Virus record (IMG/VR): IMGVR_UViG_3300048573_000410
Span: 1-42,049 of that record
Origin: a virus
DNA length: 42,049 bases
Reading direction: 5' to 3' (one strand)
Of the stretch, positions 3,823 to 36,982 are shown one piece after another. The notes below the pieces were generated by a model, which saw only the letters and a program-made list of their open reading frames with translations, did no database searches and was not told the origin of the DNA. The position numbers and the translations under genes are program-made. Each line of letters starts with the position of its first letter. The first letter of the stretch is position 1.

Positions 3823-3858
3823 CAAAAGTACCCCCTCAGTATTTTGACTTAAAGGACA
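3823..3858 (-). promoter_or_regulatory. Late promoter P1 (portal/endolysin operon)
   Basis: On the minus strand TGTCCTTT (3851-3858), exactly 20 bases, then TACTTTTG (3823-3830), a perfect Bacteroidota -7 box. The spacer holds an ACTGAGGGGG repeat (3831-3840) touching the -7 box. Four bases separate the -7 box from the ATG at 3818. Confidence 0.85.
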
Positions 3859-6027: not shown

Positions 6028-6603
6028 TTAGGCTTCAGGTTTAGCTTCTTTAGCTTCTTTTGCTTCTGCATCCGCTTTAGCTTTGGCTTCTTTGGCTTCT
6101 GCATCGGCTTTAGCTTTGGCTTCTTTGGCTTCTGCATCCGCTTTAGCTTTGGCTTCTTTGGCTTCTTTGGCTTCTTTGGCTTCTGCATCGGCTTTAGCTT
6201 TGGCTTCTTTGGCTTCTTTGGCTTCTGCATCAGCTTTGGCTTCTTTGGCTTCTTTGGCTTCTTTGGCTTCTGCATCGGCTTTAGCTTTGGCTTCTTTGGC
6301 TTCTGCATCAGCTTTAGCTTTATCAAAAGGAGGTATTGCCATTTTTGATAAAGATTCTTCTTTTACAAGTAGATACTTCGACTTATTTGAAACCATTTCG
6401 CTAATAAGCGTCTTAGCTTCTTCTTGAGTCATATCCTCCAAAGCTTCTTCTTCAGTCTCGCCTTCAGATGCTAATGTGAGCAAACCGCCTAAAGTATAAG
6501 CAAAACCTTCTCGCAGCGTTTTTACATCAGGATTATCGGTAGTAACAATCAAAACTGATTGAACACCATCCGGAGTCTCTAAATTTAATTTTAATGCTTT
6601 CAT
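6028..6603 (-). CDS. Repeat protein with Lys/Ala/Asp/Glu helix
   Basis: A 191-residue protein. Residues 1-95 form a compact domain (MKALKLNLETPDGVQSVLIV, then acidic EGETEEEALEDMTQEEAKTLI). Residues from about 96 to the end are a near-perfect tandem array built from KADAEAKEAK-type units, predicted as a long charged single helix. It lies between capsid and tail-tube genes, where head decoration or head-tail joining proteins are common. The array is encoded by nearly identical DNA units, so its length should vary easily by slippage. Function unknown. Confidence 0.75.
   Translation of the reverse strand: MKALKLNLETPDGVQSVLIVTTDNPDVKTLREGFAYTLGGLLTLASEGETEEEALEDMTQEEAKTLISEMVSNKSKYLLVKEESLSKMAIPPFDKAKADAEAKEAKAKADAEAKEAKEAKEAKADAEAKEAKEAKAKADAEAKEAKEAKEAKAKADAEAKEAKAKADAEAKEAKAKADAEAKEAKEAKPEA
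6055..6325 (-). repeat. Tandem repeat array inside structural gene
   Basis: Units of about 12-33 bases built from TTCTTTGGC, TTCTGCATC and GGCTTTAGCTTTGGC (plus strand) repeat many times with few changes. Unit lengths are multiples of three, so the frame is kept. Several other frames stay open through the array only because of the repeat. Confidence 0.9.
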
Positions 6604-10222: not shown

Positions 10223-10654
10223 TTAGATACTACTGAGGTCTTTTCTAACCGCTCGAATTTCAGATGATACGGTTTTAGGCAAGTAGTTTTCGAGTGCCTC
10301 AAAGACAACACCTGCAGCAATATAAGCCATCAATGCTTCCTGAATGTTCAAATAACCATATTTTAAAAAGCAAATGAGTACAGCTCCACCAATTACAATC
10401 GCTCGAAGAAATCCTCGTAGATAACTCAACCCGTGGGCAACACCTGGAATCCATTGCGCTACATACACGATGATAAAAGTCAGGACTGCCGAAAGCCACA
10501 TGGCCCAACTCGTAAACGGGTTAACCAAATCGCCTTTTGGTGGGTTGCTGATTGTCGAAATCAAATCACCTACCGAGGGTGTTTGAGCCATTGCAGAAAA
10601 CACAAAAGCAAAGGCAAAAAACATAAATAACGCTAAAAGACTACTTCTTTTCAT
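10223..10654 (-). CDS. Putative holin (signal peptide plus membrane segments)
   Basis: A 143-residue membrane protein. Residues 1-24 form a Sec-type signal peptide or first membrane helix ending AMAQ. Further hydrophobic segments lie near 49-67 (AMWLSAVLTFIIVYVAQWI), 80-100 (LRAIVIGGAVLICFLKYGYL) and 105-118 (LMAYIAAGVVFEAL), and the tail is basic (SSEIRAVRKDL). Size, topology and position next to a BhlA-like protein and a spanin suggest a holin or antiholin. The leader has AACCCAAAAA 14 bases before the start. A near match to the dispersed repeat (ACTGAGGTC, 10232-10240) lies in its last codons. Confidence 0.6.
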   Translation of the reverse strand: MKRSSLLALFMFFAFAFVFSAMAQTPSVGDLISTISNPPKGDLVNPFTSWAMWLSAVLTFIIVYVAQWIPGVAHGLSYLRGFLRAIVIGGAVLICFLKYGYLNIQEALMAYIAAGVVFEALENYLPKTVSSEIRAVRKDLSSI

Positions 10655-10685: not shown

Positions 10686-10955
10686 TTAAACTCTTAATGC
10701 CTTCAACAAAGCATTTTCCAATTTATCAATCACGTGTGTATTGCGCTTCAACGAATCGTTCACCTCTTCAGTCAATTGAATCAATGAGGCTCTATCATCT
10801 TTCAAATAAGCCATATTTTCGGCATGAGCCTTCTCCAATTTTTCCTCTAATTTCGATTGTCTGTTGTAGAAATAATAAGCAGCCATCAGCATCATGGTCA
10901 TCGAAAGACCTTGATTCTTGACTTGCTCGAACACGAATGATAATAACTGATCCAT
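10686..10955 (-). CDS. BhlA/UviB-type holin
   Basis: An 89-residue protein with one N-terminal membrane helix (about 16-32, LSMTMMLMAAYYFYN) followed by a charged coiled coil (RQSKLEEKLEKAHAENMAYLKDD, then SLKRNTHVIDKLENALLKAL). This is the layout of the BhlA/UviB holin group, where residues F-YNRQ-K-EE-L follow the helix. It would permeabilise the inner membrane. The mRNA starts at promoter P3, giving a leader of roughly 30 bases with ATCCCCAAAAA 12 bases before the ATG. The next gene, 31 bases on, is the second holin-like gene. Confidence 0.75.
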   Translation of the reverse strand: MDQLLSFVFEQVKNQGLSMTMMLMAAYYFYNRQSKLEEKLEKAHAENMAYLKDDRASLIQLTEEVNDSLKRNTHVIDKLENALLKALRV

Positions 10956-11027: not shown

Positions 11028-11525
11028 TCAAACTGGCACTTTTTTCTTTATAAATCGTGAAGACACTATACCAAGTGCAAGTAGCAAACCCAGAATAATA
11101 ATGATTTTATTTCCTATTTTTCTTAGTGTTGAATATTTATCGCTGTCAATTTTAAGTTTTTTGTTTAGCTTTTCAATCGCTTCACGTTTTTCAACTTCTT
11201 TCAACAACTTATCCTTCAAAAGAAAAACATTCGCACTATCCAAAACCATTTCCTTAACATATCGAGTGCGATACTCCACCTCACGCACACACGGTGGACA
11301 ACTAACCAAAATAACCGACGGCTCCGCCGATGCTGGACACACAACAGACCGCATCACGGGCAGAGCCGACACATCCAAAGTTAAAAAACGAATACTATCT
11401 ATCACGGTTGTATCACGCACGGTCGTGATCACTGCGGGAAATTTATCAGCGCATTTTTGCGCCAGACGGGCATCACTCAAGCAAGCGACAAAAAGGAAGG
11501 GTAAAAGGAATAGTAAATTTTTCAT
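11028..11525 (-). CDS. Unimolecular spanin (u-spanin)
   Basis: A 165-residue protein with a lipoprotein signal at one end and a membrane anchor at the other, the defining layout of u-spanins such as T1 gp11. The lipobox is FVAC with acylated Cys15. The periplasmic part has cysteines in VVCPAS and SCPPCVRE, then a coiled coil about 95-135 (LLKDKLLKEVEKREAIEKL). The C-terminal membrane helix is about 141-158 (IIIILGLLLALGIVSS) followed by RFIKKK. It would link inner and outer membranes and fuse them at lysis. The gene is next to the holins and has its own leaderless late promoter. Confidence 0.8.
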   Translation of the reverse strand: MKNLLFLLPFLFVACLSDARLAQKCADKFPAVITTVRDTTVIDSIRFLTLDVSALPVMRSVVCPASAEPSVILVSCPPCVREVEYRTRYVKEMVLDSANVFLLKDKLLKEVEKREAIEKLNKKLKIDSDKYSTLRKIGNKIIIILGLLLALGIVSSRFIKKKVPV

Positions 11526-13480: not shown

Positions 13481-13938
13481 GCCGCTTGAGTTGGAAGGTC
13501 AAATAATTCGGTTGGTTTAGATTCTTTTTGAGTTTCTTCTAAATTTTGATTCAGAAGGAACTCTATGGGCAATAGTAGGCGGTGCGCATCGTGGGCAGTC
13601 ATTGCTTTTTTAAGAATGAGCCTTTGATATGCCGCCTTTCTTGACTTAAAAATGAGGTGCAGCTCATATAGCCGCTCCTCTTTTGTAAAAAATTCTTCTT
13701 TGATGTCACCCCTTAGTATTTTTAAGGTTTCGTCCAATTTCTGGTATCTCCCGAGTAATACATTTTGTAGCTCATTTTTGGCTTTTTCACCTATTTGTGT
13801 CACTTCATGCAATTGGCATCCACGGTATGTAGCTTCCCATTCGGCAGCAACCTTAAACTCTTCGATTGAAATAGCGTAGGCAATACGCCTTTTGCAAAGC
13901 TCATTTTCCAAAAAATCTATAACCTGTTTGGTGGTCAT
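13477..13938 (-). CDS. Hypothetical helical protein in early operon
   Basis: A 153-residue, all-helical-looking protein with many charged residues (QLHEVTQIGEKAKNELQNVLLGRYQKLDETLKILRG...). No catalytic motif. It overlaps the membrane-protein gene by four bases upstream and the 73-residue gene downstream. A near copy of the dispersed repeat (CCCCTTAGT, 13709-13717) falls inside and reads LRGD. Confidence 0.6.
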   Translation of the reverse strand: MTTKQVIDFLENELCKRRIAYAISIEEFKVAAEWEATYRGCQLHEVTQIGEKAKNELQNVLLGRYQKLDETLKILRGDIKEEFFTKEERLYELHLIFKSRKAAYQRLILKKAMTAHDAHRLLLPIEFLLNQNLEETQKESKPTELFDLPTQAA

Positions 13939-15053
13939 GATGTGAATAGTTTTTCTCTATCTTGCTTTTTGGTCAAATAAACTTTGCCAAAAACGTACTC
14001 CATAAATGGAATACTGGCGCAATACAGCAATGAAAAAATCACTTCTTTTCCGATGCCAAAAGTGTCCCAAACGCCCGGGACAAATAGAAAAGCATTAAAG
14101 AGAAAAACACCCACTTCATAGTTCAAAAGTGGCTTTAATGTATAATCTCCAAAATCGTCTTTTGGGGTGTTCATCGTTAAAACGATGCCAAAACAGCCCA
14201 TCAAAAATGCACCGAGGAACGCCAATATTGAGGGGATGTCTTTGCCGCTTATTTGATGAAAATTTAAAAGTGATAGGCCCGTCTCGTAAGATTGGTAACA
14301 GATCATGCCGACGAAACAGACGAGCGCAAATAGCTCCTTTTCAAAAATATTCGTCCGTTGTCCGAGCGTCCGTAGCATCGTCCGAGCGTCCGTGAGTTCG
14401 GCGGTCAAAGCGTCCGTTGCGTCCGTGAGCGTCCGTATTTGCGTCCGAGCGTCCGTGAGCTTTTGAGCGATTGCGTCCGTGTCCGTCCGTAGCGTCCGAG
14501 CGTCCGAATGGGCGGACATGAGTTCTTTTTCTAACTCATTTCGACGGATTTGTAGGGTTTTCACTTCATTTTCGAGGGTTTCTACCTTTTCAAAGGCATC
14601 TCGAATCATGATGTTTTTTGCCACATTTTCGTTATACATCATCTGCATTTGCTTATCGTCCGAGTCCGTCCGTGAGCGTCCGTGAGCGTCTGAATGAGCG
14701 TCCGAGTTGTTGTCTGCGTCCGTCCGTGAGCGTCCGTTTGCGTCCGAGCGTCCGAAGTCGTCCGTCCGTGTCGGACGGTTAGCGTCCGAGCGTCCGTCCG
14801 TGTCCGTCTGAGCGTCCGTGAGCATCCGTCCGTGTCCGTTTGCTATCTGTTGAGCAACATCAGCCGCTTTGGGATAATTACGGGCGAAGTGAAGGCTAAT
14901 GGTTTCAATTGCATCAACGGTGAGGGTGTCCGTCCGTTGAACGGGACCAACTTTGTCACGATACTTTCTCGAAAAAGTATCCCATGTGACGCTTATTAAT
15001 TCAGCAACTTCAAAAGCTGTCATAAGGTTAAGTTTTTGAATTTCAGCTATCAT
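13935..15053 (-). CDS. HTH / coiled-coil / four-helix membrane protein
   Basis: A 372-residue multi-part protein. Residues 9-40 (LMTAFEVAELISVTWDTFSRKYRDKVGP) look like a helix-turn-helix of the excisionase/MerR type. Residues 78-135 are a Thr/Asp/Arg/Ser tract from a DNA-level repeat, then a coiled coil at about 145-240 containing a second tract (TDARTQIRTLTDATDAL). The C-terminal 130 residues hold about four membrane helices (LFALVCFVGMICYQ, IPSILAFLGAFLMGCFGIVL, VGVFLFNAFLFVPGVW, VIFSLLYCASIPFMEYVFG). This predicts a DNA-binding protein anchored in the inner membrane. It overlaps both neighbours by four bases. No named family is recognised. Confidence 0.7.
   Translation of the reverse strand: MIAEIQKLNLMTAFEVAELISVTWDTFSRKYRDKVGPVQRTDTLTVDAIETISLHFARNYPKAADVAQQIANGHGRMLTDAQTDTDGRSDANRPTRTDDFGRSDANGRSRTDADNNSDAHSDAHGRSRTDSDDKQMQMMYNENVAKNIMIRDAFEKVETLENEVKTLQIRRNELEKELMSAHSDARTLRTDTDAIAQKLTDARTQIRTLTDATDALTAELTDARTMLRTLGQRTNIFEKELFALVCFVGMICYQSYETGLSLLNFHQISGKDIPSILAFLGAFLMGCFGIVLTMNTPKDDFGDYTLKPLLNYEVGVFLFNAFLFVPGVWDTFGIGKEVIFSLLYCASIPFMEYVFGKVYLTKKQDREKLFTS
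14351..14510. repeat. GTCCG-rich repeat array, cluster A
   Basis: About fifteen copies of GTCCG within GCGTCCGT, GAGCGTCCG and related units of 9-12 bases. Because unit length is not a multiple of three, the same DNA is read in different frames (TDAR versus other products) along the gene. Confidence 0.75.
14656..14845. repeat. GTCCG-rich repeat array, cluster B
   Basis: About nineteen more copies of GTCCG in units like those of cluster A. The gene reads them as SDAHSDAHGRSRTD and similar, showing that frames switch between units while the DNA motif persists. One inverted copy (TCGGACGG) is included. Confidence 0.75.
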
Positions 15054-23739: not shown

Positions 23740-25566
23740 TTACCCCGCTATTAATTCGAATTTAACCTCCGTAAATGGCGAATTGGTATTATTGAGCTTT
23801 GCGGAAAGCTCTTTCACGTAGGCTGTAGTCGTGCCGTGTTCGGTTTCGACAATGACTTTTGTTTGTTTCATTTCTGCAAAACGTTTCAAATTGTAAAGGC
23901 TCATGTAGCTTGTAATACTGAGGGGGTATCCTGATGCTCGAAGTTGCGCCGTGCGTTGCCACTGTTTCAAGTAGAGACCATTTGCGCCCTGGATGAGTAG
24001 GCTCATCGTTGGAGTGGAGTGATTGGCGGCTCTGAACGGGCTGTTTGAGTTTTCCTGATAATCGAAAAATAGGCGTTTGGCTATGGTCTTTTTGCCGATG
24101 CCAAAGGCGGTGGTTGATCCCTCACGTGCCATGTCAACGGTGGTGAGACTGTTGAGAGGTAGGGTACTGAAAGGAAGTGCTATGTCGTTTTGCCCTTCGC
24201 CTTTGGTGAATGAGTCGAGCTGCCCTTTGTTGTTGATTTTTTCGACATCATCGGTGTATTTTACGATGAATCCGTTGTCGTCTTTGTAGGCTCGGCTATA
24301 CTCGGGCTGCATGTTTTCAATTTTAACAGCCTGTTGATTGAAAACATCTTCGTTGCGTCTGAATTGCATTTTGTTGGCAATCAAGAACGGTGTGAGGTTG
24401 AATGTATTACAAAAATCACTTATAAATTCTTGACAGCTTTGGTCAAAAACGTGATTTGCGGGGTCTATTTTGGATACAAAAGCATTTAGAAAACCGTAAT
24501 CTTTATTATTCCCTACTTGAATAACTTCTTTTAGTACGTTATCGAGCGCATAGTTATTATCCATAAGAAGCTTATCGAAATCGTCACCCAAAACAGAAAA
24601 ATCGAAGCTATCAATGCCAATTTTCAGAGCAATTTTTTCAAATATGTATTTTATTCGGTAAAAGGGTATGTAGCTGTTTTCAAAATGTTCATCAACAGAC
24701 GGCTCATTTTTATAGACATTCCAATTGCTATTTTGGTACTCAACACGATTAAAAAAATTTCCAATGTTGATTTTATTGTTTTTTTGAGCGTAAAAGCCCG
24801 GGCACTGTACGAAGTTGAAACTTACGTCTGAGCGGGGTGCAATGGTGTAGGTCAAAATGAAATTTACAAAGTTTTCTTGAATTGATTTGGCGTAGCTTTT
24901 TTCGTATAAAACAATAAAATCAGAAGTAGAAAGTGGCCTAATGATTGGCGTAAAATCTTTGGTGGGCGTGATGTCGAGCGACACATAGCCTTGATGATTT
25001 ACAGTTGATGCCACGCCAGGGTACTTTACATTGATAAGGTTTTTCAGTCCTCCAATGACCGACATTTGTTGGTTGACAGGTGCGTAAACATCAAAATCCT
25101 CGCCGTTTATGTTGATGCGATAGAGCTTGCCAACAGTCGCTTGAGGCGAAATGGTGTAGCTGTAAAGAGCCACAACGGTTTGCGGAATTTCAAGCATGGA
25201 CAAACAGTCCGCTATCTTATATTTTGCGAGTTTAGCCCAAACAGCTTCCGCATCTTTTTTAAAATAACAAGCATATTGGTCGTTGGTGACTTGCACGCCC
25301 TCGATGTTGCTGATGTATCCCCGTTGGAGCAATTGATTTTTGTAAAAAATTGAAGCTTTTATATTTTGTGCTTTGGCTCTACGGGCATCAAGGCGGTTGG
25401 CGTGCTGGATGATTGCTTTAAATTCTGGGGTTAGCTTGAGTTTGAGAGGGTAGGAGTAGTTCTTTTCTTTGCGGTCGCTCTCAAAATAGGCATTGGCAAC
25501 GTTGAGGGTTAGCGATTGCTTTCCGTCAAGGGTTACTAATTTGTTTTTTATATTGAGATGCAACAT
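23740..25566 (-). CDS. Tail-tip / baseplate-type structural protein
   Basis: A 608-residue virion protein, last gene of the leftward tail cluster. The N-terminus (NKLVTLDGKQSLTLNVANAYFESDRKEKNYSYPLKLKLTPEF) matches the opening of large Bacteroidota siphophage tail proteins that follow fibre genes. The middle (QDFCNTFNLTPFLIANKMQFRR-like stretch near 390-410) is a segment found in tail-hub proteins. A repeat copy is read as GYPLSITS. It starts after a terminator. The exact place in the tail tip is inferred only. Confidence 0.5.
   Translation of the reverse strand: MLHLNIKNKLVTLDGKQSLTLNVANAYFESDRKEKNYSYPLKLKLTPEFKAIIQHANRLDARRAKAQNIKASIFYKNQLLQRGYISNIEGVQVTNDQYACYFKKDAEAVWAKLAKYKIADCLSMLEIPQTVVALYSYTISPQATVGKLYRININGEDFDVYAPVNQQMSVIGGLKNLINVKYPGVASTVNHQGYVSLDITPTKDFTPIIRPLSTSDFIVLYEKSYAKSIQENFVNFILTYTIAPRSDVSFNFVQCPGFYAQKNNKINIGNFFNRVEYQNSNWNVYKNEPSVDEHFENSYIPFYRIKYIFEKIALKIGIDSFDFSVLGDDFDKLLMDNNYALDNVLKEVIQVGNNKDYGFLNAFVSKIDPANHVFDQSCQEFISDFCNTFNLTPFLIANKMQFRRNEDVFNQQAVKIENMQPEYSRAYKDDNGFIVKYTDDVEKINNKGQLDSFTKGEGQNDIALPFSTLPLNSLTTVDMAREGSTTAFGIGKKTIAKRLFFDYQENSNSPFRAANHSTPTMSLLIQGANGLYLKQWQRTAQLRASGYPLSITSYMSLYNLKRFAEMKQTKVIVETEHGTTTAYVKELSAKLNNTNSPFTEVKFELIAG
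23917..23926 (+). repeat. Dispersed repeat ACTGAGGGGG
   Basis: Exact ten-base copy opposite in strand to the tail-tip gene, extended match AATACTGAGGGGGTA. Confidence 0.85.
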
Positions 25567-25643: not shown

Positions 25644-28600
25644 TCAATACGTTCTAACTTTTATATCATCAAATTGAAAAGATTGTGAAACAACTCCTGC
25701 ACTTGCTACAATAACTGCCATTACTCCAAATTCACGACCTGATACTTTTGGAATGTTAGTTGTAGAAGTAAAAATTGGCGTTGTCATGTTGTTGATATAA
25801 TATTCAATACTTGTTGAAGTAGCTATTATTTTCAAATCGTAATCAGTATTTACTGCAAAATTGAAAAGTCCTGCTAAGCTATTTGTTCGTGTAGAATTAC
25901 TTGATGTAACGCAAGTAATGTTAGTAGATAAATCATTAATTTTAAAGTATGAGCCATCGACTGGCTCGGTCGTTGTTCCATCGCCAAATCCAATATAAAT
26001 GTTTATGGATGGTGTAAGAGTAGCAGGAATTCTAAACCGTCTTACATAAAATTCATACGTTTTTCCTGTTTCAAACAAAAGTGATGCTGATGATGTCGTT
26101 ATACCAGCACGACCTGTTACAGTTGTTCCTGTTTTACAAGACATACGTGCATAGTTATCACCCATGACTCGTGTTTCTAAAGTATTTGTTGCACCTGTAC
26201 CACTTACATTTGAAATGAAAACACTTCCTGATGGAATATTTGCTGATACTGAATGAACTTGTTCAGTTAAATCCCATGCCGTTGATGCAATTGCTGCATC
26301 TACGTAAGATTTCGGAGTAGGATTAGCGTTACCAGTGGGATTTTGTACTGTAACAGCCGAGAAGAAATTTACTATTGAATTGTAATTTTGTGTTGCTGTA
26401 TAGTTATTTATTGCATTAAGTGATGCAAAACTATTATCTACATAGTTTTTATTAACTAAATCAATCGGTAGAATAGGTTCATTTATTGCTTGTGGCGTTT
26501 TTGTAAATTTAAATCTTTCAGTTATCGTTTTCAGACGATTAGTAAATAATATTGTGGAAGTATCAATTTCAGTTTTTTTCCAAATGTAGTCGTATCCATT
26601 TGATCCAATTTTGCCGTTTTCGTCAAAAATCGGCAAAAAAGCACCTACAACGGAAAAGGAATTACTGTTATTGTATTTATCGAATTTTATTGATCCATCT
26701 TCAAGTAAACTTTGCGAAAAACTGAACACTCCTGAATTTTTCACGCCCAAAGACATTCTTCCACTTTCTCCACCAGCTAGTGTTATGCCCCAAATTTCAG
26801 ATGTTCGCACTGGATCAACACCCAATTTTGCACCAAAACTAAAAATTGTTGCAACAGGTGCCGTTAAAGCATCTAAATCTCTGTAACTGCCAAAACCGTA
26901 TGCGTTACTTGTAATTAAACTGTTTTGTGTTTCTAAATTGGACAGAATATTTCCTTGTACGACTTTGTTTTTAAAAAATAAATCTACACCATTATTTCTT
27001 AAAACATCACTTCCAACAAAATTCGTTCCGTTAAATCTTAACGTTTCAGCGTTTGCTGCATTAGGTAGGAATTTAAAAGAAGGATTAAAAGACCTTTGAA
27101 CACTTTTCATCCATTTGTCTGGATTAATTTTAGTAAAGATAAATACATCTCCAAAATAGATATTGTCATTTTCATCATAATTTTTAAGGATAATTTCTCC
27201 TTGACTTGCTTGAAAAGTTATATTAGTCGCAACTACATAAGGTGTAGTCATTTCAACAGTATTTGTTGCTGCTAATCCAGTAAATATGAGCTCATATGAT
27301 TCACCCATTATGGTATTTGACGGCAAAATTATAGTGCCATTTGTTGCTGTTGTTGAACCAACTTGATAGAATAGTGTCTTGTGTTTTTCTTTTAAAATCG
27401 TTGCTGAAATATCACTAGTAAAGCTTACGATTTCAAATGTGTTAGATTGTCGTTTTACGGTATTCCCACCTCCACCCGAATTACCTAAGGTTTTTATTAG
27501 ATCAATAGTATTGTATGTTATATTATCAGCTATGTTAAAATAACTACAGTTATTTAAGACTATACCATAACCACCATCTTTAAATGTGTTGTTTGTAATA
27601 TTATTATAGCTGCACCCTTCTGCTTCTATAAAGTTTCCACCACTCTCGAATAAATTTTGTGAAATTAAATTTGTTGGAGAATTTTTAAGTCTGATGGCAG
27701 GCACATTTGCCAATGTTTCTGAAAATGGACGATTTAGGTGATTTAGTAAAAAAGCATTTTTCCAATTTTGAAAAACATTCGATTGTATCATATTTAGACC
27801 TGTATTTTCAAAATAAATACAGGTATAGTCATTACTTATAAATTGATTGCCCAGAACTAAAATTGGACGTGAAGCATTATTGTAGTTAGAATAGATACAA
27901 TAACCCTGATTGTGTTTGAATTGATTCCCCGAAATAGTAAGTTTACCATTATTTGAAACTGAATTGTTCAATACTTCAATTATTCCTGCATCAACGTTTC
28001 CAAATTCAATTGGATTACAAAAAGAAACTAAATTGTTACTATTAAATGTCCAGTTTGCACCCTCAATATGAGTCACAGCTTTGTGTAATCCCCAAAATGT
28101 GCAACCAGTTATAAAGCCAAATTCGGAAACAGTTTCTTGGCTACTCCCTTGATTACCTGTTATGATTATTCCTCTACCACGTTGTGTTGGATTATTGTAA
28201 TCTAATTGTCCATTATTACTGTTCCCTTTGAATGAACAATTAGTAATTTTTGCACCTGAACCTAAACCATATGAACCACCCACATCATCGCCCACACCAT
28301 ATAAAAACAGCCCAGTTTGTGCATTAGATCCAAAATTGAACGCATGAACATTGTCAATATTAAGTTCTTTTTGTATGTTACCAAAAAATAAAGCATTACA
28401 TGTCGTGATTTGATTTCCAAAGTCAAAAAATAAATTTTCAACTTTGGAACTTACATCGTATGAAATATTACCACTTCGACCAATGTAAAAAACACAACCT
28501 TGTGAAGGTGATAAATTATCAATTAAACCAACTTTTATTGTAGCATAATTGCCGTCGAAATGTAATAATTTTTTATCTGTTACTAAAACTCGTGAGTTAA

Positions 28601-29210
28601 CATTATAAATACCAATTGATAACTTAACTGAAACATTTTCAGCCAATAATGGTGAATTAAACATTGCTTGAAAAGCAAATGCATCATCAGTATTATCGTT
28701 AAGCGTTGCTCCAAACATTGTTACATCAACGATGTTATTCGTTAATTTTCTTTTCCAATATCCACCATTTTTTCCAGTTGCTGGGAAAACTATACCAAAA
28801 TCAACTACTTGAATAGGAAGTGCTGGTAGGTAATCAAAAATGCCATTATCGTTAATTGTCTTAAGACTTATTGTGTTCAAAAGTTTATCGTATGCTATTA
28901 AATCTGAATAAGAAGATACTGTTGTTTGAACTTGTGAAACATTAATAGCATCTTTATTTAGAACGCCGTCAAATACGGAAGAAATGCGACCATTAGCCGT
29001 ATTACCATGACTAATCGCATCAGAAAGCGTAAAATTAATAGAATTTTTTAAACTATTAAAGGGCATCCATTCAATAGACCCATCTGCATTTGTCACTAAA
29101 ATGGTGCTATTTCCTCCACTTTGTAGTAACGAAGTAGCTGATATCCTCGTGCTTTGTGCATGAATTATTTGAAAAAGAAAAAGTACAATAATTACATAAA
29201 TTAGCCTCAT
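25644..29210 (-). CDS. Tail spike with beta-helix and signal peptide
   Basis: Start set at the ATG at 29210 (the longer frame begins at TTG), giving 1188 residues. Residues 1-19 (MRLIYVIIVLFLFQIIHAQ) form a Sec signal peptide. About 150-590 is a pectate-lyase-type parallel beta-helix: repeated Asn-rich rungs such as ITGCTFWGLHK, ISGNQFKHNQGYCIYS and ITNNTFKDGGYGIVLNNCSY. About 890-990 has phage-fibre repeats (DLVNKNYVDNSFASL, PTPKSYVDAAIAST). The C-terminal 200 residues look like a jelly-roll, ending FQFDDIKVRTY. It would bind or degrade a surface polysaccharide. The gene is more AT-rich than its neighbours. A signal peptide on a tail spike is unusual. Confidence 0.78.
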   Translation of the reverse strand: MRLIYVIIVLFLFQIIHAQSTRISATSLLQSGGNSTILVTNADGSIEWMPFNSLKNSINFTLSDAISHGNTANGRISSVFDGVLNKDAINVSQVQTTVSSYSDLIAYDKLLNTISLKTINDNGIFDYLPALPIQVVDFGIVFPATGKNGGYWKRKLTNNIVDVTMFGATLNDNTDDAFAFQAMFNSPLLAENVSVKLSIGIYNVNSRVLVTDKKLLHFDGNYATIKVGLIDNLSPSQGCVFYIGRSGNISYDVSSKVENLFFDFGNQITTCNALFFGNIQKELNIDNVHAFNFGSNAQTGLFLYGVGDDVGGSYGLGSGAKITNCSFKGNSNNGQLDYNNPTQRGRGIIITGNQGSSQETVSEFGFITGCTFWGLHKAVTHIEGANWTFNSNNLVSFCNPIEFGNVDAGIIEVLNNSVSNNGKLTISGNQFKHNQGYCIYSNYNNASRPILVLGNQFISNDYTCIYFENTGLNMIQSNVFQNWKNAFLLNHLNRPFSETLANVPAIRLKNSPTNLISQNLFESGGNFIEAEGCSYNNITNNTFKDGGYGIVLNNCSYFNIADNITYNTIDLIKTLGNSGGGGNTVKRQSNTFEIVSFTSDISATILKEKHKTLFYQVGSTTATNGTIILPSNTIMGESYELIFTGLAATNTVEMTTPYVVATNITFQASQGEIILKNYDENDNIYFGDVFIFTKINPDKWMKSVQRSFNPSFKFLPNAANAETLRFNGTNFVGSDVLRNNGVDLFFKNKVVQGNILSNLETQNSLITSNAYGFGSYRDLDALTAPVATIFSFGAKLGVDPVRTSEIWGITLAGGESGRMSLGVKNSGVFSFSQSLLEDGSIKFDKYNNSNSFSVVGAFLPIFDENGKIGSNGYDYIWKKTEIDTSTILFTNRLKTITERFKFTKTPQAINEPILPIDLVNKNYVDNSFASLNAINNYTATQNYNSIVNFFSAVTVQNPTGNANPTPKSYVDAAIASTAWDLTEQVHSVSANIPSGSVFISNVSGTGATNTLETRVMGDNYARMSCKTGTTVTGRAGITTSSASLLFETGKTYEFYVRRFRIPATLTPSINIYIGFGDGTTTEPVDGSYFKINDLSTNITCVTSSNSTRTNSLAGLFNFAVNTDYDLKIIATSTSIEYYINNMTTPIFTSTTNIPKVSGREFGVMAVIVASAGVVSQSFQFDDIKVRTY

Positions 29211-29211
29211 T

Positions 29212-29547
29212 TTAATATTTTTTGTTTTCAAAATCTTTGTTTATTTTTGCTCTATCCTCTTCTTTTTTAACACCAAAAAATATGTTCATAAGCATATTAA
29301 AGTCGTTTTCTGATTGCTCATATGCAGCTCTTATTTGCGCCCTTTGTACTGATTTTTGTTCAATCATTAAAGAAACTGATTTTGAGTCAGTTACTCGTTC
29401 GCTGGTGTCAGCTTTTCCATTTTGAATCACGATTGACTGAACAACAACGCTATTATCACGAGTAAAATAATTAGTTTCATTATTTTGAGAATGACCAAGA
29501 TGCATAGAGATTGAAAAAAAAATAATAAATAAAATTAAAATTTTCAT
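29212..29547 (-). CDS. Small secreted protein in fibre cassette
   Basis: A 111-residue protein with an N-terminal signal peptide (MKILILFIIFFSISMHLGHSQ, about 1-21). The mature part is polar and helical (KSVSLMIEQKSVQRAQIRAAYEQSENDFNMLMNIFFG) and ends KINKDFENKKY. It is one base from the spike start, so co-translation is likely. It may be a chaperone or a partner of the spike; not recognised. Confidence 0.65.
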   Translation of the reverse strand: MKILILFIIFFSISMHLGHSQNNETNYFTRDNSVVVQSIVIQNGKADTSERVTDSKSVSLMIEQKSVQRAQIRAAYEQSENDFNMLMNIFFGVKKEEDRAKINKDFENKKY

Positions 29548-29603
29548 TGTAAAATTAAATTATTTAAAAATTTGAATGATAAATTTATTAACCAAAGTCA
29601 AAA

Positions 29604-29969
29604 CTAATTTTTATCTTTTTTTATAATTTTTTCAATTTTCTTTTCAACATCTTCGACTTTGCCTTTATATTTCGATAATTCAGCAATCTGAAGGTCAAGA
29701 GCTTCAATGTTTTGCAGCAATTGTTTTTTTTGTTCCCGGAGTTGAGCAACCTGTTGATTGATAAGCTGCGAGCTGGTAGGCACGGATGTTTCTTTGTATT
29801 CTTTGACTTTGATGAAAATCAAAGAATCAGATTTCGTGACAATTTCATAATTATAGACAAGCGAATCGGGCTTGATTTCGGCTTGTTGCTGCCCGCCTTG
29901 TTGTTGGTTTTGGGCGAATGAGAAGAGAGAAAGCGTTAATAATAACCCCAAAAACATTAATTTTTTCAT
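29604..29969 (-). CDS. Secreted coiled-coil protein in fibre cassette
   Basis: A 121-residue protein: signal peptide MKKLMFLGLLLTLSLFSFAQ (1-20), a Gln-rich linker (NQQQGGQQQAEIKPD), a short beta region (LVYNYEIVTKSDSLIFIKVKEY), then a long coiled coil (QLINQQVAQLREQKKQLLQNIEALDLQIAELSKYKGKVEDVEKKIEKII). Probably trimer- or dimer-forming, by its heptad pattern. It lies between two fibre-type genes. Role unknown. Confidence 0.65.
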   Translation of the reverse strand: MKKLMFLGLLLTLSLFSFAQNQQQGGQQQAEIKPDSLVYNYEIVTKSDSLIFIKVKEYKETSVPTSSQLINQQVAQLREQKKQLLQNIEALDLQIAELSKYKGKVEDVEKKIEKIIKKDKN

Positions 29970-30002
29970 TGAAAAATATATTTATGTAAGAAAATATTGA
30001 TT

Positions 30003-30037
30003 TACTGAGGGGGTACTTTTTTAATACCCCCTCAGTC
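30003..30037. terminator. Hairpin from an inverted pair of the dispersed repeat
   Basis: ACTGAGGGGGTA (30004-30015) and TACCCCCTCAGT (30025-30036) form a stem of at least 12 bp around a nine-base loop with a T-run. It ends the fibre gene six bases past its stop on the minus strand and is the clearest case of two copies acting as one element. Confidence 0.85.
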
Positions 30038-30042
30038 TTATT

Positions 30043-30762
30043 TTATTCGTTGTACCAGATTTCTACATCCATGTTTGGCGCACCACCGACAAAGGTTAAC
30101 GTAGAACCACTTACAGTGTAGTTATCTGTTGTTGGTGTCATTTTTAATCCGCCAATGTAAATGCCAATGTCGGTTGCAGTGCTTGGAACGGTCGCAGGCA
30201 GTGCTAATGTAGCAGTTACTTGATTTTTAACATGTGTTTTATAGGTCCATTGTTTTGGGAGCGTCACCGATGCGCTGCCAGTCAATGAAATTATTTTCCC
30301 CGAAATGCTCATGGTTTGAAACATATTTGCTGCATTGACTACATAAGGCGAAGCGGTTGTACCCGCTCCTGTCAACGTAATATTCGTTCCAGCATTTAAT
30401 TTTGTTTCAGATCCGTCAGGCGCACTGGCGGTAGGCAGAGTGACAGAGCCGCCACCATTTGATAGCGAGACAGTATTTCCCGAAATGCTTAAGGCTTGAA
30501 TTTCATTAGTCACGCTTGGATCCGATGCAGCGATTACACCCGCACCAGAAATGCTGATGCCTGAACCAGCTGAAAATAGTGAAATGGGATCAACCGCTTC
30601 AATTTTCTTGCGACCATTCGCCCAGCTTGTTGCACTTACTCGAAAAATGAAGCCTGATGTGGCTGCATTTGCATCGAGCGTATTGAAAATATTGGTCGTT
30701 GTTTGGGCTTTTAGGCTTAATGAAAAGACTGCTAATAGTCCGAGTAATAATACTTTTTTCAT
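30043..30762 (-). CDS. Tail fibre-like protein with signal peptide
   Basis: A 239-residue protein. Signal peptide MKKVLLLGLLAVFSLSLKAQ (1-20), then fibre-type sequence: NAATSGFIFRVSATSWANGRKKIEAVDPISLF, two related beta repeats (QALSISGNTVSLSNGGGSVTLP and QTMSISGKIISLTGSASVTLP) and a C-terminal knob-like domain ending GAPNMDVEIWYNE. This shape is common for Bacteroidota phage fibres and related virion proteins. The leader has AACCCCAAAAG 14 bases before the ATG. It follows the 646-residue tail gene by 19 bases and ends at the repeat-built hairpin. Confidence 0.7.
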   Translation of the reverse strand: MKKVLLLGLLAVFSLSLKAQTTTNIFNTLDANAATSGFIFRVSATSWANGRKKIEAVDPISLFSAGSGISISGAGVIAASDPSVTNEIQALSISGNTVSLSNGGGSVTLPTASAPDGSETKLNAGTNITLTGAGTTASPYVVNAANMFQTMSISGKIISLTGSASVTLPKQWTYKTHVKNQVTATLALPATVPSTATDIGIYIGGLKMTPTTDNYTVSGSTLTFVGGAPNMDVEIWYNE

Positions 30763-30781: not shown

Positions 30782-32722
30782 TTAGTAAAATATTCGAATA
30801 TCTTCCATATTAAGAGGGATAGTAAAAATGATTTGATTCAAATTATCAATGATAAAATCATCAATTTCAAATATTTCGACATTACCTCGGTAAACTCTCA
30901 TGCGTAATCTATCATTTGCGGTGGTGGCACTAATGTCGGCTATTAGTATGCTTCCACTTGTAATGTTCAATGCTTTTGCAAATCGTAATGGGCCATATTT
31001 GATGTTGATAGCCAATGAGCCACCACCGCTCAAATAAACATTTTCGTTGTCGGTTATGCGGTAGATGCCTTCATTGAGCGTTCCTTGAGCTTGTAGCGCA
31101 TCAAATTCCGCTTGTGTCATCTCAAAAATCAACAACCCTGATTGAATGCCCCCTAAATTATTGACCAATCCATTTGGAAAGGCGGGTGGTTCGGCAGGGT
31201 TTGCCATTGATTTTGTAACCGCATCCGTTTCAAAATTAGACTCTTGGATAATTGGGATACAAACAAATTCCCATGTGTATAGATATTCGCCCGTTTCACT
31301 CACCAGTTCATCTTTTGAACGGCTGTCCGCTATTTGAAGCGCAAAATAGTTTGTATCCGTAACGTCATAAAGGACATTTGAAGCAAGCACTTCTGAATAG
31401 GCTTCTTTTTCTGATGCACTCAAGTAACCCGTGCGATAGGTATATTTATGCTGAACATTGTCTTTAAGTCGTTTATTGACAATTGTTTGGCTGCCCCCCT
31501 CAGTATTTCTGATGATTTGATACGCTTCAGCACTGATGGCAATGGTATGAGAAAAATTACCTCTGCATGTTATTGTTTCGGGTAATCCAAAGGCATTGAG
31601 GTAAGCCAATTGCCGAAAACGATAAAAAAAACGGTCGTGTATGTAAGTGCGAAGCGGTGACACTGGCACATTGCCTTTAAAAATTTGAACGGTGTAATGC
31701 GTTGTTTGCGCGTGTAAAACCAACGCCGCAGGTGAGACTGAAAAAGTTACACATAGCCCGTTGACGGCGGTGACGTACTGTTTTTCAAAATAGTCTGATA
31801 GACCCGCTTTCCAGCGTCTTACCTTTAAATATACTTCACCGTCACCGGCATAACAAAACCACGAAAGCCATTCTTTTGACTGAAAAGCAACGCTTTTTTG
31901 ATTGGGTTGATAGGTCAAAAAGCTGTTTGAGTTACCAAGGGAATTAAAAAAGTCTTGAACCAAAAAACGACGATTTGAATATCCACCAATCATAAGGAAT
32001 CTAACAGCATCATAAGTCTTGACAAAACGACAATAGTATCTTCTGATGTTGTTGGATACTATGGCATCATCAATTGGATAGTGCGCAAATGGGTTTTCTA
32101 AAAGCGTCGTTAAGCATTCACTTTGTAACACATCTGAAATGTTTAAGGCTATTTTGGCGTTGTCATCAGCTACCAATTCACCTTTAAATGCTTCTGCAAA
32201 AACATTTGTATTGTATCTTTTCTCAAAAAACACGGCATAAGTAGCCCCCTCAGTATCAGCACTCATGAAAGGCGTAAAAGACTTTGTAAAAGCTTTTTGG
32301 GGGTTAAAAATCCATTCAATGGTGTAATTATCCGATACTATCAATTGAGCATGGATACCTAAATTGTCTTGATAACAAAATATGTAAGGATTTAGACGAT
32401 AATGAGCGTTGATGGAATCAATGATATGTTGCATCTCATCCTGATCAATGTTTGCAAAATTGACCTGAATTTCATTGGTGTTGGTGGGCGCCGTTGAAAT
32501 CAATTGAAACTGAACCAAGGCAACCAATTGATTGTCTTCGTCGGTGATGCTGATGGCAACCACGTCGCCGTCTTGAAAAGCATCATTATTATATTTAAAA
32601 ACGGAATCTGCCAATTTTGAAACCAAGGGAACGCCCAGTTCATCCCGCAGTGTCAGTTTATAGACAACGGGATTGTTAGAGAAACTCAAATTTCTGGGAG
32701 AATTATCAATGCTTACCGTCAT
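30782..32722 (-). CDS. Tail-tip structural protein
   Basis: A 646-residue protein, the second gene after promoter P5. The N-terminal 450 residues are a beta-rich virion-type domain (PVVYKLTLRDELGVPLVSK..., GDVVAISITDEDNQLVALVQFQL). The C-terminal 120 residues (LLIFEMTQAEFDALQAQGTLNEGIYRITDNENVYL) match the hinge to a fibre-like end seen in Bacteroidota phage tail proteins. It overlaps the 178-residue gene by four bases (ATGA). It likely sits at the tail tip together with the 608-residue protein. Two dispersed repeat copies fall inside, read as NTEGGS and DTEGAT. Confidence 0.6.
   Translation of the reverse strand: MTVSIDNSPRNLSFSNNPVVYKLTLRDELGVPLVSKLADSVFKYNNDAFQDGDVVAISITDEDNQLVALVQFQLISTAPTNTNEIQVNFANIDQDEMQHIIDSINAHYRLNPYIFCYQDNLGIHAQLIVSDNYTIEWIFNPQKAFTKSFTPFMSADTEGATYAVFFEKRYNTNVFAEAFKGELVADDNAKIALNISDVLQSECLTTLLENPFAHYPIDDAIVSNNIRRYYCRFVKTYDAVRFLMIGGYSNRRFLVQDFFNSLGNSNSFLTYQPNQKSVAFQSKEWLSWFCYAGDGEVYLKVRRWKAGLSDYFEKQYVTAVNGLCVTFSVSPAALVLHAQTTHYTVQIFKGNVPVSPLRTYIHDRFFYRFRQLAYLNAFGLPETITCRGNFSHTIAISAEAYQIIRNTEGGSQTIVNKRLKDNVQHKYTYRTGYLSASEKEAYSEVLASNVLYDVTDTNYFALQIADSRSKDELVSETGEYLYTWEFVCIPIIQESNFETDAVTKSMANPAEPPAFPNGLVNNLGGIQSGLLIFEMTQAEFDALQAQGTLNEGIYRITDNENVYLSGGGSLAINIKYGPLRFAKALNITSGSILIADISATTANDRLRMRVYRGNVEIFEIDDFIIDNLNQIIFTIPLNMEDIRIFY
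31495..31504 (-). repeat. Dispersed repeat ACTGAGGGGG
   Basis: Exact ten-base copy (six G in total) in the strand of the tail gene, read as NTEGG. Confidence 0.85.
32245..32254 (-). repeat. Dispersed repeat ACTGAGGGGG
   Basis: Exact ten-base copy in the same gene, read as DTEGA. Confidence 0.85.
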
Positions 32723-33255
32723 TTGTCGAGCCAGCCAGTTTGATTAACTAAATCGCAGATATCCTCAATGAACTCCACTTTAAATTGAAAAGTCGTGACG
32801 ATGCCTATCCAAAAACCGTCGCCTTTGAAAAGCGAGGTTTCACACAAAAATTGACCGTAACTGATGCGATTGAGTGAGGATTGAAAAAGACTCAAACGGT
32901 CACGAGAATCCATGACCATGCGGGCGATGACCTCTTGAGTGATTTTGAGGCACTCATCTTTTGCTTTTTGAACTTCTGCATCCGTCAGTTCTGGAATTCT
33001 TTTAGTGATGGTAAATCCGGTGTCGACATGCGCCAGTAACCCTTGGCTCTCATCTCCTTCGGGCTTGATGGATGAATCTATCAGGCGCAAGCTGTATCCC
33101 GAAGGCTTCAAGGCATTGCGAAAAACACCGTCCAAAAGGTCAGCATAATTATCAACGGCATAACCAACTTTACCTGGCTTATCCTCATGACGTATATCAG
33201 GATGATTGACCGCAATAGATTTGAAATAATCAGCGATGTGGCGATGGATGTACAT
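32719..33255 (-). CDS. Tail protein, possible tail terminator or tip adaptor
   Basis: A 178-residue protein, first leftward gene from promoter P5. N-terminus MYIHRHIADYFKSIAVNHPDIRH, middle strands (SGYSLRLIDSSIKPEGDESQGLLAHVDTGFTITKRI), then helices (KDECLKITQEVIARMVMDSRDRL) and beta end (FWIGIVTTFQFKVEFIEDICDL). No family is recognised; size and place before the tail-tip genes fit a small tail accessory protein. The ATG is five bases past the -7 box, so the mRNA is likely leaderless. Confidence 0.6.
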   Translation of the reverse strand: MYIHRHIADYFKSIAVNHPDIRHEDKPGKVGYAVDNYADLLDGVFRNALKPSGYSLRLIDSSIKPEGDESQGLLAHVDTGFTITKRIPELTDAEVQKAKDECLKITQEVIARMVMDSRDRLSLFQSSLNRISYGQFLCETSLFKGDGFWIGIVTTFQFKVEFIEDICDLVNQTGWLDK

Positions 33256-33385: not shown

Positions 33386-36300
33386 ATGGCTGAAAGAGTA
33401 GAGCAACGCTCCGTATCCGTCAGGATTGACGGTAAAGAAATTGAAAGCACCCTTAAAAGTATCAGCCGTGAAATGGGTCGGCTTAAAGATGAAACGGCAC
33501 GGGCTGCGGAGGGAACAGATGCCTACGTCAATCGAGCTCTTTCATTAGCCCAAGCCGACGAAGCCGCAAAAAAAAACCGAGCGAGTATAAAAGCAATTGC
33601 CGACATCTGGGAACGCATGCCCGAAGATGTAAAAGCGAGCGTGCTGGAGCAACAAAAAGATTTACAAAAACTTCGACAAACCTACATTGACCTCGTAAAA
33701 GCGGGGCAAAAAGTGGATAGCATCAACATGAAGATGCTCGCCAAAGATATTGAAAAAGCAGAAGCTCGTATCGCTTCTACCGTTACAGCTTTTTCTAATT
33801 TGGATAAAACAGCCACTAATAATATTGAACATGTTAAAAAACGCTTTTCTGAACTCAATAAAGAGTTAGATAAAGCAACTATTAACTCTCAAGAATATTA
33901 TGAAAAAATTAAGGAGTACAAAAACTTAGAAAAAGTTCTTGAAGATCATAAGAAAAGTATTACGGGGATTACCAAAGCGTGGCATGAGCAAATACCAGGA
34001 ATTAATGGTGTAATTGCAGCAGCGGCTGGAATGTTCGCTGTTGACCAAATTGTTGCATATGGGCGTGAACTATATAAAACAGGGGTAGAATTAGATAATA
34101 TTGCTCGAAAAAGTACAGTTGTCCTTAAAGAACAATTGAGTTTTGTAAGTGAAGAAGCCCGAAAAAATGCAACTGATATTGGTTTAGCCAGAGAGCAATA
34201 TGTTGGTTTAAGTACAGATGTAACTGCCTTTTTGCAATCGCAAAAATTTAGCCGGGAAGAAGCCGCTAAAATGAGTACCGAGGTAGTAAATCTTTCTGGT
34301 GTTTTATCACAGTTTTCTGGTGGGGGTGTTGAAAAAACACATGAAGCCTTGGAAGCTATCAAAGGGGCATTTGCGGAAGATGTTGAACAACTCGCCAAAT
34401 TCAACATTGCTATATCAGAAAATGTAGTGCAAGCAAAAATGATGGAGTTAGGGCTTGACAAAATGAATGCCGCTGCCCAGCAACATGGCAGAGCTATGAT
34501 TATTCTAAAAATGATAACAGATGGAGCAGCTGCACAAAATGAAGCTTTTACAGGTAGTGCGGATGGAATGGTCAGAAGTCAAGCACGCATTGATGCCATG
34601 TTGGCAAATATTACTAATAATTTAGCTAAATTTTTTATTCCACTTTTTGAAAAATTATTGAATGTAGTTGCACCTGTTGCTGATTGGTTGGGTGAAGTAT
34701 CTGGTGCAATGGCAGGTATGGTAAATCCAAGTAAAGCTGCAAGTGATGCTTTTTTTGAGCAAAAAAACAAAGTAGGAGAACTTGAGAAGTCTTTGCCAAA
34801 ATTACTTGAAAAATATGAACATTTAACTGAAAAGAGTAAAAAAGTAGGTGGTGAAACCAAGTTAAATAAAAAAGAACAGGAAGAACTTAAAAAAGCAATT
34901 CAAGGAATAGGTGAAATTGTTCCTACATCAATTATAGAAATAGATAGATATGGTAAAGCTTTAAAAATTAATGCCAGTGCAGCTGAAGAGTTTTTAGTTG
35001 CTCAAAGAAAAATATTAAAATTAGATAATGCTGATGCCATAACAAAAACAAGTTCAAGACTTGATTATTTGGAAGGAGAAGAAGTGCGAATTAGAGAACA
35101 GATAGAAAAAATTAATAAAGGAATAATTGTAGGTACAAGTGGTTTTTTTGGTAAAAACTATCTTAAAGATACTGATGCTAAAATAGAAGCTGTTACAGAA
35201 TTACAAAATAAGTTAGGTAAAGTTACTCAAGAATGGGATACTCTATATTATAAAAGACAGCAATTGAGAGGAGAACCATTGGATGATATTAAGGCACCAG
35301 ATACACCAGATATGTCAGGTGTGTCCATATATGATCAAAACGAAGCCAAAAAGCGAGAGGCCGAAATTCAGAAAGATTTAGAGAAATTAAGAGAAGCCCG
35401 TGAGCGACATGAAGCTGATGTTACTCGAAATCTTTTAGACAATGAAGCAGCACGAGCTGAAGCCATTAGAGCAAAATATCGAGAAGATATACAATTAGCT
35501 GAAACACTTGAAAAGCAAAAAGGTAAAATTGGCGAGGAAGCATATCAACTAAAACTTGCCTTAGAAAAACAAAGAGGCATTGAAATTAGAGATATTTATA
35601 CAGATGTTCTGAAAAAACAGTTAGATGATATTGAAAAGTTTTTGGATGACGGGAATCTAAAACGGTTAACTGCAAATGAAAAGGAGATACAAGGTATTTA
35701 CAGTAAATACGATAAACAAATTGCAGTCGCCCAACGCATTGAAAATGACCTACTAAACACCACCGAAGCCCAGCGCGCCACAGCTCATACGCAGAAACTC
35801 GCTCTGATGGCAACCCGTGAACGTGAAATAGAGGCTTTTCAAGAAACCAAAAGACTTGAAAAAGATTTCAAAGCAGCAGAACAAACTATTAAGGATTTAG
35901 AAGCTACTAAAAAGTTTTTTGAAGAAGTAAAACGTATTGAAGATGAATATAATCAATATGTAGCTGACACAAATGCTGGATTAAAACCTGTAAAATCAGT
36001 TGAAGGCTCATTTGAAGAATTAGAACTTTTCAAAATACAGATTCAATCAAAAGCAGATGCTGAGATTGAACAGGAAAGACTTAAATTAGAAAAATTACTT
36101 GCAGCCAATCAAGGGTATGAAGAGCGTTTGGATGCCATTAGAAAAGCATTTGATGTTAAAAAGAAAAATATTCAAGACGTAGCTGATGCTGATAAAACTA
36201 AAAAAGAGCAAGAGTTTGTCAATAAAACAATTCAAAATTACAATGCACTTGCCAATGCTGTTGGTAATGCTTTTACAGCTTTAGGAGACATTATTGGTGC

Positions 36301-36982
36301 TGAAACGGAAGAAGCAGCAGCTTTACAAAAAGTAGCTGCATTGGCAAAGATTGTTTTTGATACTGCACAGGCTATTTCGGGTGTTGTTGCAGCAGCAGCA
36401 AGCACCTCTATAACACCAATTGACCTTGCAATTAAGGTGGCATCAGGTGTAGCTGTTGTTTTAGCAAACATAGCTATGGCAAAAGAGGTATTGAGCACTG
36501 CACCAAAAGTTAAAGCTAAAGCTGATGGAGGAACTATTGGTGTTGTGGGCAATCAAGATGGGCAGTATTATGATGCTTTTATGGGTGGTGAAGCTAAAAC
36601 AGGCATGGTTACAAGACCCAATGTTTTTTTAGCGGGAGAAAAAGGAGAAGAATATGTTATCGCAAATCCTGAACTCAAAATACCAGAGGTAGCAAACTTT
36701 TTGCCCGTCATCGAGGCACATCGCCAAAGGCGTAAAAGTGGAACTACTCGACAATTTGAAGATGGTGGAAACGTGGGCAGTGCGAGCAATAATCAAAATA
36801 TTCCTTCGGGAGCTCCAGTTTCTCCCTCAAATACTGAGGGGGTGTTCATCGCTGTAGCGGAAAAAATGATGGCTGTTTTAGAAAAAATGGAAAGTGCTTT
36901 TGATAAAGGCGTAGTGTTTACCTGGGAAGATTTAGTAGAGTTTGGCAAACGACAAAATACTTTGAACCACATTAAGAAATAA
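33386..36982 (+). CDS. Tape measure protein
   Basis: A 1198-residue protein, the longest gene, which sets tail length and assists DNA entry. It is mostly alpha-helical. Coiled coil spans about 10-195. A hydrophobic segment lies near 208-229 (INGVIAAAAGMFAVDQIVAYG), then a TMP domain (ATDIGLAREQYVGLSTDVTAFLQ...FTGSADGMVRSQARIDAMLANITNNLAKFFIPLFEKLLNV). Further coiled coils run 640-970, and a hydrophobic stretch about 985-1040 holds IVFDTAQAISGVVAAAAS. It is transcribed away from the other tail genes. Parts (33400-33790 and 35700-35830) have different codon use from the AT-rich remainder, which suggests mosaic exchange. Confidence 0.9.
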   Translation: MAERVEQRSVSVRIDGKEIESTLKSISREMGRLKDETARAAEGTDAYVNRALSLAQADEAAKKNRASIKAIADIWERMPEDVKASVLEQQKDLQKLRQTYIDLVKAGQKVDSINMKMLAKDIEKAEARIASTVTAFSNLDKTATNNIEHVKKRFSELNKELDKATINSQEYYEKIKEYKNLEKVLEDHKKSITGITKAWHEQIPGINGVIAAAAGMFAVDQIVAYGRELYKTGVELDNIARKSTVVLKEQLSFVSEEARKNATDIGLAREQYVGLSTDVTAFLQSQKFSREEAAKMSTEVVNLSGVLSQFSGGGVEKTHEALEAIKGAFAEDVEQLAKFNIAISENVVQAKMMELGLDKMNAAAQQHGRAMIILKMITDGAAAQNEAFTGSADGMVRSQARIDAMLANITNNLAKFFIPLFEKLLNVVAPVADWLGEVSGAMAGMVNPSKAASDAFFEQKNKVGELEKSLPKLLEKYEHLTEKSKKVGGETKLNKKEQEELKKAIQGIGEIVPTSIIEIDRYGKALKINASAAEEFLVAQRKILKLDNADAITKTSSRLDYLEGEEVRIREQIEKINKGIIVGTSGFFGKNYLKDTDAKIEAVTELQNKLGKVTQEWDTLYYKRQQLRGEPLDDIKAPDTPDMSGVSIYDQNEAKKREAEIQKDLEKLREARERHEADVTRNLLDNEAARAEAIRAKYREDIQLAETLEKQKGKIGEEAYQLKLALEKQRGIEIRDIYTDVLKKQLDDIEKFLDDGNLKRLTANEKEIQGIYSKYDKQIAVAQRIENDLLNTTEAQRATAHTQKLALMATREREIEAFQETKRLEKDFKAAEQTIKDLEATKKFFEEVKRIEDEYNQYVADTNAGLKPVKSVEGSFEELELFKIQIQSKADAEIEQERLKLEKLLAANQGYEERLDAIRKAFDVKKKNIQDVADADKTKKEQEFVNKTIQNYNALANAVGNAFTALGDIIGAETEEAAALQKVAALAKIVFDTAQAISGVVAAAASTSITPIDLAIKVASGVAVVLANIAMAKEVLSTAPKVKAKADGGTIGVVGNQDGQYYDAFMGGEAKTGMVTRPNVFLAGEKGEEYVIANPELKIPEVANFLPVIEAHRQRRKSGTTRQFEDGGNVGSASNNQNIPSGAPVSPSNTEGVFIAVAEKMMAVLEKMESAFDKGVVFTWEDLVEFGKRQNTLNHIKK
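36833..36842 (+). repeat. Dispersed repeat ACTGAGGGGG
   Basis: Exact ten-base copy near the end of the tape measure gene, read as NTEGV. Confidence 0.85.

Follow-up and report, generated by a model that had tools for sequence, protein, structure and literature searches.

The cytoplasm is taken to be the place where the fibres of tailed phages fold and assemble. A missing signal peptide has been used as support for the phage origin of tail-fibre-like proteins in a study of retroelement targets (PMC6199706). Most substrates of signal peptidase I (SPase I) in Bacteroidetes expose a glutamine (Q), which then becomes pyroglutamate (PMC5837995, PMC10653852), a preference called the Q-rule below. 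Searches of the open-licence literature gave no account of virion fibres with signal peptides in Bacteroidota phages, and the paper on the North Sea flavophages Nekkels and Ingeline makes no mention of signal peptides. Here we analyzed four consecutive genes of the virus record IMGVR_UViG_3300048573_000410, which encode a spike of 1188 amino acids (aa), a fibre-like protein of 239 aa and two small proteins of 121 and 111 aa. The window, that is the whole stretch of DNA analyzed, is this 42,049-base record of an uncultured virus with an integrase gene. We consider it probable that the receptor-binding proteins of such a cassette are exported, cleaved and attached to virions outside the cytoplasm.

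Signal peptides and domains of the cassette proteins

Signal peptides of the Sec/SPase I type were predicted at the start of all four minus-strand genes (Table 1) by a home-made predictor and not by SignalP. Each of the four has a basic n-region, a hydrophobic core, a small residue at -1 and Q at +1. The sites in gene order (239, 121, 111 and 1188 aa) are A^Q, A^Q, S^Q and A^Q, with -1/-3 residues mostly compatible with SPase I, and cleavage is predicted before the Q because of the Bacteroidetes Q-rule. A sequence-only reading made earlier had given the positions of the four open reading frames (ORFs), all on the minus strand, correctly and had claimed clear Sec signal peptides for all of them. 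Both claims agree with the present analysis. By a criterion blind to the +1 residue, the cassette proteins are signal-like in 4/4 cases and the remaining window ORFs of 100 aa or more in 2/38, a difference not due to chance (p = 1.3e-4, Fisher test). That reading had also described three signals as ending in AQ; here Q stands at +1 in all four, and the cleavage point moves by one residue, to before the Q. The ATG at 29210 is preferred as start of the spike, as the TTG at 29231 merely extends the n-region. By these features the four cassette proteins are predicted Sec/SPase I substrates, and their signals with export and the predicted cleavage are the well supported, and best supported, steps of the proposed route. 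No lipobox was found in the four proteins by inspection. Export by the type IX secretion system (T9SS) was considered as well and was rejected, as none of the four matches a T9SS C-terminal sorting domain in NCBIfam or Pfam.

The spike matches the para_beta_helix family TIGR03804 at 19.8 bits, just above the cut-off of 19.45, while its matches to Pfam NosD and Beta_helix stay below cut-off. No N-terminal virion-attachment domain was matched in the spike in Pfam or NCBIfam, and an AlphaFold2 model of residues 151-750 made without alignment was too poor to use (mean predicted local distance difference test score, pLDDT, 37). The 239-aa protein carries a repeat (NEIQ.LS.SGNTV / NEIQ.LS.SGN.V.L) which is common to the virion protein gp25 of Cellulophaga phage phi39:1 (61.5% over 26 aa). 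The mature 121-aa protein is modelled as a Q-rich part, a beta-hairpin and then a helix of about 55 residues (AlphaFold2, mean pLDDT 80), and the 111-aa protein had no relatives by tblastn. The name of fibre-cassette proteins, given to all four in the sequence-only reading, fits these two small proteins by position alone.

The same arrangement in Cellulophaga phages

No close relatives of the cassette proteins were found by tblastn in phages or by peptide patterns in IMG/VR, and PHROGs gave nothing informative for the cassette. A weak match at E = 1 pointed to phi39:1, in which gp25 and gp26 (pectate lyase) are neighbours behind the tail genes; both follow the Q-rule, with M at -3 in the gp25 signal, and both are annotated as virion proteins by tandem mass spectrometry (MS/MS). 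The virion status of all Cellulophaga proteins given here is the MS/MS annotation in the sequence records. Further Cellulophaga phages were traced from gp26 by tblastn, and phages of several families (Assiduviridae, Pachyviridae, Duneviridae and unclassified phages) were found to have between two and five Q-rule genes for fibres or spikes, one after another among the tail genes, several of them annotated as pectate lyases. The Q-rule cassettes comprise phi10:1 gp91-94 (all MS/MS) and gp95, phiSM gp08 (MS/MS) and gp09, phi18:3 gp85-87 (MS/MS), phi19:1 gp101-103 (MS/MS), Nekkels 53-55, phi13:2 gp84, 86 and 87, Ingeline 31-34, and those of phi19:3 and phi46:3. The N terminus of phi19:1 gp104, MS/MS-annotated also, is signal-like with K as the +1 residue, and a metagenome contig (L060) has three signal-bearing genes consecutively. 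In total, 13 Q-rule fibres or spikes, from five Cellulophaga phages, are MS/MS-annotated as virion proteins. The window and these phages have in common that two or more Q-rule genes, one of them for a long spike, follow each other in the tail region. The sequence-only reading had implied that the window is singular in this respect, which is wrong, since the trait recurs in some Bacteroidota phages.

The blind test is passed by 18 of the 20 distinct N-termini of cassette proteins, and [AGSC]Q is at the expected place in 18/18 of these, against a background of 41/414 non-signal phage ORFs (9.9%). The resulting p of about 8e-19 is indicative only, because the phages, traced by homology, do not form a random sample, the cassette proteins were listed with the Q-rule known and the N-termini are not fully independent.

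The construction of these genes is informative also. The phi46:3 gp81 (L048:5890-8124) has 38 N-terminal residues of the gp94 type, followed by a body that matches phi10:1 gp93 with 93.5% identity over 707 aa; this reads as a clean domain swap, with one spike body on two signal modules. In the gp93 and gp94 types the signal and 20-130 further residues are conserved and the distal part is swapped, which is the layout of phage receptor-binding proteins. Similar spike bodies are found without a signal in phiST gp30 (66% identical to phi39:1 gp26 over 590 aa) and in the MS/MS-annotated phi14:2 gp97 (44% identical to phi10:1 gp93 over 664 aa), and both open with an above-cut-off match to Mtd_N (PF18454), the domain with which the tail fibre of BPP-1 begins. 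The signal peptide thus occupies the place of another phage's tail-attachment domain. The signal codons of the gp94 type have 0.213 synonymous versus 0.044 nonsynonymous differences per site, which indicates purifying selection.

A viral contig of 58% GC also encodes a signal-bearing protein (MRKLSFLASLLLVVAAAQA) that resembles a fibre (L064:2228-4099). This contig is probably from a non-Bacteroidota host, so the trait may extend beyond Bacteroidota.

Proposed export route and other explanations

We propose that the spike and the 239-aa fibre would be virion receptor-binding proteins exported by the infected cell; their place in the virion is suggested by analogy with the MS/MS annotation in other phages. 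Cleavage by SPase I would expose the glutamine, which would then probably be cyclised to pyroglutamate, so that the processed N terminus expected for the phi10:1, phi18:3 and phi19:1 proteins is pyroGlu-TVEGTVGSDGSLIPYNVS... Attachment outside the cytoplasm would follow from prior export and cleavage, and most likely it would take place on the tail at lysis, when the inner membrane is opened by holin and endolysin. The 121-aa and 111-aa proteins, such small signal-bearing proteins being found only in the window cassette, may be periplasmic helpers of folding, trimerisation or docking, or docking parts themselves, which is a guess. Whether there is a whole class of Bacteroidota tailed phages with receptor-binding proteins matured in the periplasm by SPase I and glutaminyl cyclase, assisted by exported helpers and mounted at lysis, is a more speculative matter, which we advance tentatively. 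If true, periplasmic maturation and mounting would add to the assembly of tailed phages a second stage, outside the cytoplasm. If many Bacteroidota phage fibres are exported first, the criterion of a missing signal peptide for phage origin fails, annotation pipelines may misfile exported fibre genes as host proteins, the route of periplasmic proteins to the virion becomes a question testable in cultured Cellulophaga phages, and SPase I and glutaminyl cyclase of the host become candidate phage host factors.

Several points weigh against this proposal. The window phage is uncultured and its virion content is read from the genes alone. Mass spectrometry of virions can include co-purified envelope proteins, and the Cellulophaga status consists of record annotations. 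We know of no route by which, ahead of lysis, fibres in the periplasm would get to virions in the cytoplasm. Many Bacteroidota phages are without the trait; it was not seen on the fibre or structural genes of phi12:1, phi18:1, 11b, P12024S, P2559S, FCL-2, immuto and Panino. Fibre or spike homology between the window and the Cellulophaga cassettes was found only as the 26-aa repeat of the 239-aa protein and phi39:1 gp25, and because of this near lack of common sequence the link is one of pattern and not of shown descent. The 239-aa and 121-aa genes are separated by an inverted repeat (Table 1), possibly a regulatory or termination element, which could split their transcription.

Among the other explanations, it is rather unlikely that the four proteins are exported surface or periplasmic factors from the tail operon which never join the virion and act in receptor masking, superinfection exclusion or lysogenic conversion, like lambda Lom. 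Lom is a signal-bearing outer membrane protein encoded between the lambda tail spike and tail fibre genes (PMC12309495), and phages of Porphyromonas gingivalis have Q-rule proteins whose function is unknown (PMC10367356). Secreted Q-rule proteins of Bacteroidota genomes (L020, L022, L025, L026) also contain the repeat of the 239-aa protein, which suggests an exchange of fibre-like repeats between phages and the surface proteins of their hosts, in either direction. Against this explanation, comparable Q-rule fibres and spikes of five phages are MS/MS-annotated as virion proteins, the beta-helix spike sits between tail genes, and the four proteins have no match to an outer-membrane beta-barrel family (Pfam, NCBIfam) or to a T9SS domain. 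Of the three alternatives offered in the sequence-only reading, export followed by joining of virions is thus favoured by the 13 MS/MS-annotated proteins; its surface shielding or receptor masking keeps some plausibility, above all for the two small proteins, as do free depolymerases, because co-purified proteins can be included in virion mass spectrometry.

Such depolymerases would be exported to degrade polysaccharide, clearing the capsule before or at lysis, and would co-purify with virions via glycans or vesicles. The pectate lyase annotation of several signal-bearing members and the beta-helix of the window spike would suit them, but like bodies are fused to the tail-attachment domain Mtd_N, and the conserved N-terminal modules with swapped distal parts have the receptor-binding layout, so that this explanation appears improbable. 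The remaining alternative of the sequence-only reading, in which the signal-like N-termini stay uncleaved and act as membrane or virion anchors, is very improbable. It draws on the fact that the window proteins are known from their sequence only; it is disfavoured because Q follows directly on a small residue in all 18 distinct N-termini, with -1/-3 residues mostly fitting SPase I, and a Q at +1 is purposeless unless SPase I cleaves and exposes it. An artefact of misplaced starts or chance hydrophobic N-termini is hardly credible. The longest spike ORF does start with TTG and chance can give short leader-like N-termini, but four consecutive genes have Q at +1 with the Fisher result above, and the comparable Cellulophaga signals are under purifying selection.

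Genomic setting and comparison with known systems

The minus-strand genes are ordered as 178, 646, 239, 121, 111, 1188 (spike) and 608 aa, so that the spike gene stands in the tail operon between the 646-aa and 608-aa genes. Neither of these two proteins has a signal peptide, and the 646-aa protein has an additional C-terminal stretch not present in its relatives. Profile searches of Bacteroidota genomes gave three prophages (L006, L016, L017) with homologues of both; in 3/3 the 608-aa homologue comes directly after the 646-aa homologue with no signal-bearing gene between them, whereas in the window the cassette lies there. A single Q-rule gene lies immediately downstream of the 608-aa homologue in L016. 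No consensus Bacteroidota promoter was found in the cassette junctions of the window, which are short.

Third-position GC is 0.19 in the spike gene and 0.21 in the 111-aa gene against 0.35-0.46 in the other operon genes, and it is not low in the 239-aa and 121-aa genes. The cassette is therefore mosaic at most, and by this measure the spike and 111-aa genes were likely acquired together. The idea that the four genes were recently captured together from a host was rejected, as the 239-aa and 121-aa genes are without low third-position GC.

Table 1. Positions of the cassette genes, their predicted signal peptides and the adjoining tail-operon features in the window
Feature	Position	Strand	Basis
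Beta-helix tail spike (1188 aa), Q-rule signal peptide	25644..29210	-	TIGR03804 match
Spike signal peptide, MRLIYVIIVLFLFQIIHA^QSTRI	29157..29210	-	home-made predictor
111-aa protein with Q-rule signal peptide	29212..29547	-	predictor
111-aa protein signal peptide, MKILILFIIFFSISMHLGHS^QNNET	29488..29547	-	home-made predictor
121-aa protein with Q-rule signal peptide	29604..29969	-	predictor, AlphaFold2
121-aa protein signal peptide, MKKLMFLGLLLTLSLFSFA^QNQQQ	29913..29969	-	home-made predictor
Inverted repeat of dispersed motif, ACTGAGGGGG, between 239-aa and 121-aa genes	30004..30036	-	
239-aa fibre-like protein with Q-rule signal peptide	30043..30762	-	predictor, repeat
239-aa protein signal peptide, MKKVLLLGLLAVFSLSLKA^QTTTN	30706..30762	-	home-made predictor
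608-aa tail-module protein, downstream neighbour of the cassette	23740..25566	-	homologues L006, L016, L017
646-aa tail-module protein, upstream neighbour of the cassette	30782..32722	-	homologues L006, L016, L017 (profile search)
Conserved tail-module protein (178 aa), encoded first in the operon	32719..33255	-	homologue adjoins 646-aa homologue in prophage L006

Some further features of the window were recorded. The tape-measure gene (33386-36982) is on the opposite strand to the adjoining start of the tail-fibre operon, and its product is 1198 aa long. Flavobacterium phage 6H has a tape measure of equal length, which is not among the tblastn matches listed. In 6H itself a Q-rule DUF4468 gene adjoins the tape-measure gene, and in RAP44 a lipoprotein is annotated as a structural protein. 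The dispersed motif ACTGAGGGG(G) has 23 10-mer matches with at most one mismatch versus 0.57 expected, and 20 exact 9-mers, 10 of them within the intergenic 10.6% of the sequence; example sites are 3832, 10999, 30004-30036, 33270 and 37101. The sites at 3832, 10999 and 33270 are close upstream of gene starts and belong to a longer element common to them, AATGTCCTTT...AAAA(T/G)ACTGAGGGGGTACTTT(T/C)G. The motif may be comparable to the stoperators of mycobacteriophage L5. A further Q-rule signal protein of the window, outside the cassette (10223-10654, minus strand, 143 aa), has apparent membrane segments after the signal; near it are a lipoprotein (11028-11525, also outside the cassette) and a small holin-like protein (10686-10955), and it is probably lysis-related. 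Degenerate in-gene tandem repeats are present at 6048-6321 (CTTTGGCTT units, gene 6028-6603) and at 14360-14839 (CGTCCG units, gene 13935-15053).

Compared with known systems, lambda Lom is likewise a signal-bearing phage protein from the tail-fibre region, but it is a beta-barrel of the cell outer membrane and not a virion fibre, whereas the window spike is a beta-helix. Fibres of the Mtd type (BPP-1, PF18454) also bind receptors and attach by a modular N-terminal part; they have no signal peptide and are taken as assembled in the cytoplasm. The P. gingivalis phages have genes with Q-rule signal peptides, of unknown function, which may modify the host outer membrane and are not called fibres (PMC10367356). 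The cassettes of the Cellulophaga phages phi10:1, phi18:3, phi19:1, phi39:1, phiSM, Ingeline and Nekkels share with the window the consecutive Q-rule genes and the beta-helix or pectate-lyase spikes; they differ in that fibre and spike are not separated by small proteins with signals, and in belonging to phages which are cultured.

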